Shown: positions 29,697 through 32,102 of the stretch, piece by piece | Layout: the number at the start of each line of letters is the position of its first letter | Position numbering within the stretch: the stretch's first letter is position 1 | NCBI RefSeq assembly: GCF_002286985.1 | Contig: NZ_NSKC01000001.1 | Location: 62,001-126,000 of the forward strand | DNA length: 64,000 nt | Source: Halorubrum salipaludis | Lineage (GTDB): Archaea > Halobacteriota > Halobacteria > Halobacteriales > Haloferacaceae | Direction: 5' to 3' | The notes under the pieces: model-generated | Databases searched by the model: none | The model's input: only the letters and a program-made list of their open reading frames with translations | What the model was told of the DNA's origin: nothing | Position numbers and translations under genes: made by a program

Positions 29697-29835
29697 CCTT
29701 CACCGTCGCTCCGCAGTCAGCGACGTGTCGTCGAGAACCGCGAAAGCGAACCGCCGAATCCGCGCCGACGCGACCTGAGTGATCCCCGTATCGGTCCCGA
29801 CACGATTTAGGCGGCCCGCCCGAAACGGACCGGTA

Positions 29836-31320
29836 ATGAGCACTCAGGCCGCGACGGAGGAGCGGACGGTCGTGATCGGGCTGGAGGTCCACGTCCAGCT
29901 CGAGACCGACACGAAGATCTTCTGCGGCTGCTCGACGGAGCCCGCCGAGGACGAGGAGCCGAACACGCGCACGTGCCCGACCTGCCTCGGGCTGCCGGGC
30001 GCGCTGCCGGTCCTCAACGAGGGCGCCGTCGAGGCCGCCGTGAAGATCGGCAAGGCGATCGACGCCGACATCCCCGAGACGACGACGTTCCACCGGAAGA
30101 ACTACTACTACCCCGACCTGCCGAAGAACTTCCAGCTCACCCAGTACGACGCCCCGATCTGCCAGTCCGGCGAGCTGGAGGTCCGCGTCGACGACGAGAA
30201 CCGCACCATCGGGATCACCCGGGCGCACCTCGAGGAGGACCCCGGGAGCCTCCAGCACGCCGGCGGCTCCATCGAGTCGGCGACGCACACGCTCGTGAAC
30301 TACAACCGCGCCGGGACGCCCCTGATGGAGATCGTCACCGAACCGGACTTCCGGTCCCCCGCCGAGACGCGGGCGTTCCTCGCGAAGCTGGAGGAGGTCC
30401 TCGAGTACCTCGGCGTCTTCGACCCGACCCGCGACGGGAGCCTGCGCGTCGACGCCAACGTCTCTCTGGTCCCCGAAAGCGAGGTCGACGACGGGGCGAT
30501 CACGGACGACGCCCTCGCGGACGTGAACCGCGCCGAGGTGAAGAACATCTCCAGTCACAAGGGCGCGGAGCAGGCGCTCGCGTACGAGGTCACCCGACAG
30601 GAGAACGTGCTCCGGCGCGGCCGCGAGATCGAACAGGAGACCCGCCACTGGGACGAGGCGCGCGGCGTCACCGTCTCGATGCGCTCGAAGGAGGCCGAGA
30701 AGGACTACCGCTACTTCCGGGAGGCCGATCTCCCGGCGCTTGAGGTGTCGGACTGGAAGGAGTCGATTCCGATCCCGGAGCTGCCCGACGCCCGCCGCGA
30801 GCGCTTCCGCGAGGAGTACGGGCTCGACCGCGAGTCCGCCTCGAAGCTCACCTCGACGAAGGCGGTCGCCGACTTCTTCGAGGACGTGGCCGAGTCGTTC
30901 GACCCCGACCTCGCCGCGACGTGGGTCGCCGACAACCTGCTCGGCGAGCTCAACTACCGCGAGATGCAGATTACGGACGTGGAGGACCGGCTCGACGAGT
31001 TCACGCGCCTGATCGAGCTGGTCGCCGCCGAGGAGCTCACCGTCAAGAACGCCGAGGAGGTCGTCCTCCGCGAGATGCTCGACGAGGGCGACGACCCCGA
31101 CGCCGTCATCGACCGCGAGGGGCTCGGTGTCGCCGACTCCGGCGAGGTCGAGGCCGCCGTCGCGGCCGCCATCGACGACAACCCCGACGCCGTGAGCGAC
31201 TACCACGACGGCGACGAGGGCGCGATCAACTTCCTCGTCGGGCAGGTGATGCAGGCGACGGGCGGCAGCGCCGACCCGGGCGAGGTGAACGGGCTGCTCC
31301 GCGAGGAGCTGGACGGGTAG
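29836..31320 (+). CDS. gatB: Asp/Glu-tRNA amidotransferase subunit B
   Basis: A 494-residue GatB: it phosphorylates the Glu or Asp on mischarged tRNA and, with GatA and GatC, makes Gln-tRNA or Asn-tRNA. Motifs are GLEVHVQLET at the N-terminus, CPTCLGLPGALPVLN and the HRKNYYYPDLPKNFQLTQYD region, with zinc ligands CGCS and CPTC. The C-terminal YqeY-like tail (about 350-494) is present. The ATG at 29836 is the conserved start; gatA and gatC are not adjacent. Confidence 0.95.
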   Translation: MSTQAATEERTVVIGLEVHVQLETDTKIFCGCSTEPAEDEEPNTRTCPTCLGLPGALPVLNEGAVEAAVKIGKAIDADIPETTTFHRKNYYYPDLPKNFQLTQYDAPICQSGELEVRVDDENRTIGITRAHLEEDPGSLQHAGGSIESATHTLVNYNRAGTPLMEIVTEPDFRSPAETRAFLAKLEEVLEYLGVFDPTRDGSLRVDANVSLVPESEVDDGAITDDALADVNRAEVKNISSHKGAEQALAYEVTRQENVLRRGREIEQETRHWDEARGVTVSMRSKEAEKDYRYFREADLPALEVSDWKESIPIPELPDARRERFREEYGLDRESASKLTSTKAVADFFEDVAESFDPDLAATWVADNLLGELNYREMQITDVEDRLDEFTRLIELVAAEELTVKNAEEVVLREMLDEGDDPDAVIDREGLGVADSGEVEAAVAAAIDDNPDAVSDYHDGDEGAINFLVGQVMQATGGSADPGEVNGLLREELDG

Positions 31321-31356
31321 GCTCGCCATGAACGTCACCGTCGCCGAGGGGCGCCC

Positions 31357-31620
31357 GTGAACGTTACCGTCGAGATCGTCGGCGAGGGGACCGCCGAGTA
31401 CGACCTCCCCGACGACGCCACCTACGCCGACCTCATCCGCGAGGCCGGCTACCACCCGCAGGAGGCGTCGGCGCTGGTCGACGGCTCGCCGGTCCCCGGC
31501 GACCGCGTCGTCGACGCCGACGAGGTCCGGCTCCTCCGGCTGATCAAGGGCGGGTCGACGGACGGCGGGTCGGCTAACGGCGAGTCGGTCGACGGTACAT
31601 CGGCCGAAAGCAACGCGTGA
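31357..31620 (+). CDS. samp2: SAMP2-like ubiquitin-fold modifier with C-terminal tail
   Basis: An 87-residue protein. Residues 1-66 form a beta-grasp modifier (MNVTVEIVGEG..., VDGSPVPGDR, VRLLRLIKGG) matching haloarchaeal SAMP2, which is adenylated by UbaA, conjugated to lysines and used for tRNA thiolation. SAMP2 normally ends in the diglycine; here 21 residues rich in Ser/Gly/Asn follow (STDGGSANGESVDG...). The GTG start at 31357 overlaps the stop of a ten-codon ORF beginning ATGAACGTCACCG at 31328, a partial duplication of the same start. The ubaA gene lies 5 kb downstream. Confidence 0.82.
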   Translation: MNVTVEIVGEGTAEYDLPDDATYADLIREAGYHPQEASALVDGSPVPGDRVVDADEVRLLRLIKGGSTDGGSANGESVDGTSAESNA

Positions 31621-32102
31621 GCGACTGGGAGTCGTCCGTGACCGCTCCAGAGGGGTTCGCGATCGAGCCCGCCGCCCCCACCGACCGCCTCGATATCCTC
31701 CGCGTGCTCGACGCCGCGATGTTGGAGACCGACGCCGAGACCGTCGACACCGCGATCGACGCCGACAGCGCGTCCGACGCCGGCGACGCTCTAGTCGCCC
31801 GATTTAAACGGATGGACGCCGTCGTCGGCGCGCTGGTCGCGACGCGCCCGGAGCCGGAGCGACTCCACGTCGACGCCGTCGCCGTCAGGCGGGCGCGTCG
31901 CGGGCGGGGGATCGGGTCGGCGCTCGTCGCCGCGGCGGTCCGGCGCGCCGAGCGCGACGCCGCGATCGAGTCCGTCACCGCCGCGTTCGACGCCGACCTG
32001 GAGTTCTTCTACGCCGATCTGGGGTTCGAAGTCACCGACCGAAATAGCGACGGCGACGACCGCTTGCGAGGACGCAGGCGCGTCGACGGCGGTCGGCACT
32101 GA
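31617..32102 (+). CDS. GNAT-family N-acetyltransferase
   Basis: A 161-residue protein with a GNAT fold: VVGALVATR, the core strand LHVDAVAVRRARRGRGIGSALVAAAV containing the acetyl-CoA loop R-G-R-G-I-G-S-A (about residues 95-102), and a C-terminal FYADLGFEV. Substrate is unknown. The GTG start overlaps the end of the SAMP2 gene (GTGA), so it is in the gatB-samp2 transcription unit. RimI-type protein acetylation is possible but unproven. Confidence 0.82.
   Translation: MSDWESSVTAPEGFAIEPAAPTDRLDILRVLDAAMLETDAETVDTAIDADSASDAGDALVARFKRMDAVVGALVATRPEPERLHVDAVAVRRARRGRGIGSALVAAAVRRAERDAAIESVTAAFDADLEFFYADLGFEVTDRNSDGDDRLRGRRRVDGGRH

Follow-up and report, generated by a model that had tools for sequence, protein, structure and literature searches.

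The SAMP2 gene of Halorubrum salipaludis does not end at the diglycine that closes the modifier but runs on for another 21 codons, and a comparison across the haloarchaea reveals that such extensions, some as long as a whole downstream protein, occur among genomes that encode a desampylase-type JAMM protease and in none of those scored that lack one. Maturation of SAMP2 through cleavage by the desampylase in vivo is the most likely reading of these observations. Taken jointly, the arrangement of the locus is in our judgement probably best explained by a linear SAMP2 precursor that is matured by the desampylase, so that tails are tolerated, while a stop/start overlap at one end of the gene and a ten-codon mini-ORF at the other keep its translation coupled to that of its neighbors. 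The anatomy of the locus, its distribution, the association with the protease and the seemingly obligate fusion in some species are observed here, and the cleavage, the enzyme that performs it in vivo and the coupling are inferred from them.

The SAMP2 locus and its tail in Halorubrum

The window, by which we mean the entire stretch of 64,000 nucleotides analyzed (contig NZ_NSKC01000001.1, positions 62,001 to 126,000), contains the features collected in Table 1. The upstream gene is one that we take, from its sequence, to encode subunit B of the Asp/Glu-tRNA amidotransferase.

Table 1. Features of the SAMP2 locus, in positions of the window
Feature	Position	Strand	Basis or description
gatB-type gene, upstream	29779-31320	+	ORF; TAG stop 31318-31320, 7 nt before mini-ORF
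Mini-ORF, ten codons, near copy of SAMP2 start	31328-31360	+	frame reading; MNVTVAEGRP-stop
SAMP2 precursor gene	31357-31620	+	GTG start, TGA stop, 87 aa; MNVTVE...LLRLIKGG then STDGGSANGESVDGTSAESNA
Diglycine codons GGCGGG (residues 65-66), putative cut point after	31549-31554	+	end of SAMP2 model, 66/66 positions
21-codon tail STDGGSANGESVDGTSAESNA after GG	31555-31617	+	four degenerate 15-bp units + GCG
GNAT-family acetyltransferase gene, downstream	31617-32102	+	ORF and domain matches; GTG start overlaps SAMP2 stop (GTGA)

The protein matches the NCBIfam SAMP2 equivalog NF041919 over residues 1-66 (103 bits, cut-off 70) as well as Pfam PF21965 (99 bits, cut-off 27), and its PDB matches are SAMP2 entries 2l32 and 4hrs. 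The diglycine at residues 65-66 occupies the last positions of the model and closes the beta-grasp domain, but 21 residues come after it and the gene product does not terminate there; the window SAMP2 thereby has the residues C-terminal to GG that mark a JAMM-processed Ubl precursor. An earlier sequence-only reading of this DNA had described RLIKGG followed by 21 further residues, which our reading of the frame bears out, and had called the extension a Ser/Gly/Asn tail; a tail it certainly is, but its make-up is more aptly given as four degenerate 15-bp (5-codon) units followed by GCG-TGA. The possibility of a second, untailed SAMP2 was dropped, since the genome yields a single SAMP2 match. 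An AlphaFold model obtained with 16 close sequences was poor (mean pLDDT 59.5), and the tail is without predicted structure in it.

A comparison of the Halorubrum orthologues, which the same reading had suggested for the tail, shows that it is a genus-wide trait: SAMP2 was matched in 49 of the 52 Halorubrum genomes searched (all but G034, G040 and G044), and each of the 49 genes read carries residues after GG. In 47 of them the tail measures 2-25 residues, with lengths that cluster at 5-7, 9, 11 and 16 and one gene each with 21 (the window) and 25; H. kocurii has 25 residues, H. amylolyticum 16, and H. saccharovorum and H. sodomense 11 each. In two genomes (G029 and G033) the frame continues into the GNAT gene, leaving 155 or 170 residues after GG. 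The identity of the 13 Halorubrum tails of 10-99 residues with themselves is 0.66 at a lag of 15 nt and 0.73 at a lag of 30 nt, as opposed to just 0.21-0.41 at lags of 6-14 and 16-29 nt, and long Halorubrum tails therefore grow in 15-bp units.

The core of the protein up to GG is strongly conserved in Halorubrum, whereas the tail is not, and 16 aligned proteins from the genus show no variation in GG or in the residues before it but do vary in what follows. The sole conserved part of the tail is the very end of the gene, which reads GCGTGA in 32 of 49 loci and GTGA in 47, the GTG of the latter being the start codon of the next gene in most of them. The length of the Halorubrum tail drifts freely, as does its sequence, and a conserved functional tail peptide was rejected on the grounds that neither property is conserved. 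The tail is real, genus-wide and apparently a disposable extension of the SAMP2 precursor.

Tails, fusions and the desampylase across haloarchaea

We read the ends of SAMP2 in 256 haloarchaeal genomes, namely those of family f1 with a SAMP2 match minus G063 (a partial hit with a stop) and G158, all 27 of family f12 and part of families f3, f6, f4, f10 and f11, whose loci were taken from best matches and in some cases from matches to a fusion query. A stop immediately after GG is the commonest state and the one in which most genera end; it is probably ancestral, judging from its being common in the sampled families. Outside Halorubrum, short tails are found in genera g3, g10, g11, g24 and g26, in part of g9, g19 and g20, in one member of g38 and in a few members of f3, f6 and f10, and many haloarchaeal tails amount to 1-3 residues only. 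Tailed SAMP2 occurs in 19 genus-level units, parsimony on the SAMP2 tree yields 19 changes in tail presence, and tails appear to have been gained repeatedly in haloarchaea.

In 34 of the 256 genomes the extension is an in-frame fusion to the downstream protein, which is GNAT in 13 cases (11/11 genomes of g18 plus the two Halorubrum) and a peroxiredoxin-like protein in 21 (16/17 in g38, 3/3 in g17, 1/1 in g15 and 1/1 in g27); the redox partner domain is of the AhpC/TSA type and SelL-related, as found by a domain search with one g17 protein, and no fusion genome has more than a single SAMP2 match. When fusion proteins were used as queries in 392 and 293 order-level genomes, the two genes elsewhere adjoined in one frame, separated by a stop, and the fusions therefore probably arose by losing that stop. 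Of the 21 redox fusions, 11 lack any in-frame ATG or GTG (TTG being left out of the count) over the 60 codons that follow GG; in these the enzyme would accordingly seem to be produced solely as a fusion, which is apparently obligate in some species. All 13 GNAT fusions do have an in-frame ATG or GTG within 60 codons after GG; internal starts are thus possible, and the partner need not derive from the fusion alone.

The genome of the window encodes two classes of JAMM protein by sequence. JAMM-A, of about 142 aa and with the motif HSHPTGPTHPSETD (HSHP...PSETD), matches the PDB JAMM1 of 5lda/5ld9 and, in a comparison made on this gene alone, the NCBIfam model of haloarchaeal desampylase NF041370 (155 bits, cut-off 130), so that a SAMP-specific JAMM protease is encoded in the same genome as the tailed modifier; JAMM-B, with the motif HSHPNGALRPSDAD, has no match among the NCBIfam models. 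A JAB-domain match is found in every one of the 159 family genomes, low-scoring JAMM matches being near universal, and desampylase presence was defined by a gap in PF14464 bit scores (at least 57 bits versus about 50 or fewer), JAMM being scored in the 159 genomes by the best E-value per genome. The 16 high-scoring and 11 low-scoring genes that we read split into two sequence classes, and in seven of the genomes lacking JAMM-A the remaining JAMM gene was JAMM-B in every case.

Of the 250 genomes scored for both traits, 201 have JAMM-A, 117 of them with a tail, and 49 lack it, none of them with a tail, the untailed genomes numbering 84 and 49, respectively (Fisher 2.3e-16). The difference holds when the genus Halorubrum is left out (69/153 versus 0/49; Fisher 3.6e-11) and when genus-by-state units are counted (19, 37, 0 and 17; p = 0.0037), the latter test taking G277, G300 and G303 as desampylase-positive, counts that should hold because searched members of the same genus were positive. 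Simulations of independent tail evolution on the SAMP2 tree, of which 585 out of 4000 passed the tail-number filter, gave zero co-occurrence in 0/585, with a median of 16. The association could also reflect shared ancestry, which is poorly resolved by the 198-nt SAMP2 tree. Since 84 untailed genomes have the desampylase, its presence permits tails rather than predicts them. One genome of g9 (G083; G083:C8:21700-21894) has only a partial match to the desampylase (profile positions 45-103) and a SAMP2 that stops at GG; it was counted as desampylase-negative in spite of this partial high-class match, which may stem from decay of the gene or from a contig effect.

The distribution is consistent with a mechanism whereby the gene product would be SAMP2 in the form of a linear precursor, a JAMM metalloprotease of the HvJAMM1 type encoded elsewhere in the genome would cut it after Gly66, and the cut would expose the C-terminal glycine needed for activation by an E1-like enzyme. 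Residues after GG would then cost little because the desampylase would remove anything beyond it. In desampylase lineages the stop after GG would have been lost many times and the frame extended toward the next gene, ending either in a tail with its stop over the next start or in complete fusion with the protein encoded next; in Halorubrum the sequence of the tail would be disposable and change by 15-bp repeat steps, the GTGA overlap being the part that is kept. A linear SAMP1-MoaE fusion is reported to be cleaved by HvJAMM1 in vivo, and in vitro the cut was located by mass precisely after the terminal Gly (PMC4443979), and the SAMP2 of H. volcanii is described with a KGG C-terminal end (PMC10470531). 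The processed precursor that the sequence-only reading had put forward as one of two alternatives gains support from the genus-wide tails, from tails and full fusions gained repeatedly in other genera and from the strict link of tails to the desampylase JAMM.

Two other interpretations need to be weighed at this point. SAMP2 might keep its tail, for instance as a non-conjugated binding domain, with another Ubl protein having taken over thiolation and conjugation; the genome of the window does have other Ubl genes, and a fused SAMP2 could be a domain of the enzyme, but the invariance of GG and the residues before it in the aligned Halorubrum proteins would be hard to explain if the GG end were unused, and the absence of tails from all 49 genomes lacking the desampylase likewise renders this scenario unlikely. 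It is also improbable that SAMP2 is matured by another protease or by a JAMM2-type enzyme, the link with the desampylase being indirect or phylogenetic. Such a view can invoke the JAMM-B gene, the near universality of its low-scoring class and the fact that both traits are common to related genomes; it is at odds with the lack of tails in genomes that have the low-scoring type only and with a report that HvJAMM2 is inactive on its own whereas HvJAMM1 is active (PMC4895103).

In haloarchaea that have the desampylase, a chain consisting of Ubl, GG and partner may be a working 1:1 precursor format, akin to the ubiquitin fusions of eukaryotes, in which a single cut would activate the modifier and free the enzyme, although we hold this generalization only tentatively; the SAMP2-peroxiredoxin-like, SAMP2-GNAT and second Ubl fusions would be independent uses of it. 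If it were true, loss of the protease would make all tails costly or lethal, and that cost would explain the zero tails in desampylase-lacking genomes.

The second Ubl fusion just mentioned joins a SAMP1/MoaD-type Ubl (FPPVAGG) in frame to a domain of ~100 aa ending in KAMRAGG, hence two GG-ending modules per chain, in L362 (G012), L366 (G033), L368 (G005), L370 (G029) and L367 (G115). The KAMRAGG domain has no Pfam or NCBIfam match and a 60-residue linker piece no Pfam match; by description only, the domain recalls the TBP-like GG family arCOG06308 (PMC2948915). Short tails after GG are also seen on other Ubl genes (L358 and L384 of G000, as well as L359, L369, L376 and L380), examples from the window genome being CET and AGGAGAER, and a third Ubl gene (L385, L386 and L387), which ends in AASGG plus R or Q, lies no more than a few kb from the desampylase gene in G000, G016 and G139.

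Overlapping ends, the duplicated start and probable translational coupling

Both ends of the window SAMP2 display the stop/start overlap expected of a coupled operon, given that the TGA of the mini-ORF (31358-31360) overlaps the GTG of SAMP2 (31357-31359) in a 4-nt GTGA (31357-31360) and that another 4-nt GTGA overlap joins SAMP2 to the GNAT gene (31617-31620). At the 3' end, the stop of SAMP2 overlaps the start of the next gene in 42 of the 47 unfused Halorubrum loci (40 with GNAT and 2 with the peroxiredoxin-like gene), the 4-nt overlap being missing in the other 5. The notion that the tail is required for coupling was ruled out, as untailed SAMP2 genes overlap the next gene in g6, where GG is exact (10/10), and likewise in g45 and g21.

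At the 5' end, gatB terminates at most 61 nt from SAMP2 in 28 of 49 Halorubrum loci. The gap is only 4-7 nt in seven of these; in 14, including the window, it measures 19-61 nt and is occupied by a mini-ORF, 5-10 codons long, whose start lies at most 7 nt after the gatB stop and whose own stop overlaps the SAMP2 start (the one in L019 was read by eye). Seven more loci, with gatB 28-60 nt upstream, have no bridging mini-ORF, which is therefore a clade feature and not a rule. In H. yunnanense (L010), 75 nt before SAMP2, the gap from gatB is bridged jointly by a tandem pair of mini-ORFs of ten codons each, arranged so that every stop overlaps the start that follows. Tails in all 49 genes and mini-ORFs of like build in 14 loci exceed what chance would give; when each gap was shuffled, 4-9% of runs produced a mini-ORF with its start no further than 7 nt from the gatB stop, figures that are not to be multiplied because the loci are related.

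The sequence-only reading had noted that the start of the gene is duplicated at 31328, in a ten-codon ORF whose TGA lies over the GTG, and this stands, ATGAACGTCACCGTCG and GTGAACGTTACCGTCG agreeing at 14/16 bases. The mini-ORF starts exactly at -29 in 12 of the 14 loci, and in most loci its first 18 nt best resemble the SAMP2 start at this same offset, the likeness reaching 14/18 in the window and 18/18 in L010 but being weak in L025, L049 and others. Offset and likeness fit the duplication, in tandem, of 29 bp at the start of SAMP2; because this length is not divisible by three, the copy upstream is read out of frame until it meets the TGA that the SAMP2 start itself supplies. The corruption of the gene that had been suspected is thus better read as a duplication making a bridging mini-ORF, which would lead from the gatB stop to the SAMP2 start, keep termination-reinitiation going and restore a coupling otherwise lost to the longer gap.

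Another clade of Halorubrum has gatB at a distance of hundreds of nt; there a conserved block near GAACCGTGCGATTGACGCCCG, possibly SAMP2's own promoter, is found ~40 nt before SAMP2 (e.g., L013, L015, L018, L021-L023, L026-L029, L046-L051 and L053).

The 42 of 47 stop overlaps, together with the mini-ORF between gatB and SAMP2, suggest that both features probably serve to keep the translation of SAMP2 coupled to that of its neighbors, although not universally so because of the 5 unfused loci without overlap and the 7 gapped loci without a mini-ORF. In H. volcanii the 4-nt overlap is reported to be the commonest arrangement and, for one gene pair, a 13-nt gap to cut reinitiation by 60% and a 22-nt gap to abolish coupling (PMC10666635).

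It might be argued that tail and duplicated start are neutral debris of stop-codon loss and slippage, with no bearing on processing or coupling: the tail varies freely in length and sequence, in 15-bp repeats, and a small C-terminal extension may be tolerable by chance. Debris would hardly be expected to spare every genome lacking the desampylase, nor the GTGA overlap to outlast changes in the tail in 42/47 loci, even with a different next gene, nor the offset of the mini-ORF to be exactly 29 in 12/14, and we deem this explanation quite unlikely. Error in sequencing or assembly at one or both gene ends has next to no chance of being correct, as tails and mini-ORFs recur in independent assemblies of many species, and tails in 49/49 Halorubrum genes rule out an assembly artifact. 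The altered gene, the other alternative of the earlier reading, finds no support as damage or sequencing error, both end arrangements being common to many species.

Related systems and biological significance

Eukaryotic ubiquitin precursors and ribosomal-protein fusions carry an extension or a whole protein after GG that is removed to activate the modifier. SAMP2 differs from them in being ThiS/Urm1-like, in that the presumed protease is a JAMM metalloprotease and in that the partners are GNAT and AhpC/TSA-like proteins. In Caldiarchaeum subterraneum, SAMP precursors are reported to be cut by CsJAMM and the CsUb precursor by CsRpn11, and here too archaeal Ubl proteins have residues after GG; that case concerns a single uncultured thermophile and other Ubl proteins, and the portion of the source available to us describes neither GNAT or peroxiredoxin-like fusions nor a comparison of tails with protease loss (PMC6043591). 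Ubl-MoaE fusions, from which HvJAMM1 or DRJAMM release a Ubl with exposed Gly-Gly, resemble what we propose for SAMP2, but they involve a MoaD/SAMP1-type Ubl and its own enzyme, MoaE, rather than SAMP2 with unrelated partners in haloarchaea, and the natural archaeal cases are said to be restricted to Crenarchaeota (PMC4443979, PMC8832034). As for the overlaps, termination-reinitiation in Haloferax volcanii also works with 4-nt GTGA/ATGA overlaps and very short gaps (PMC10666635, PMC6728339), whereas a ten-codon bridge made by duplicating the downstream start is not among the arrangements described in the accessible text on coupling in that species (PMC10666635). For Halobacteria, the position of this Ubl family next to a GNAT gene appears in a table published in 2010, and a link with peroxiredoxin was noted in Thermococcales (PMC2948915); in the open-access literature that we searched, we came across neither haloarchaeal SAMP2 tails nor these GNAT and peroxiredoxin-like fusions.

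If the proposed maturation is correct, haloarchaea would have evolved the processing of precursors of Urm1/ThiS-type modifiers repeatedly, wherever an appropriate JAMM protease was available, and these organisms would offer natural, culturable test cases for the origin of ubiquitin-style precursors. The desampylase would gain a second likely job, maturation, and is predicted to be needed, not dispensable, in tailed species. The mini-ORF, for its part, suggests how a coupled operon can outlive the frame-breaking duplication of a start codon.
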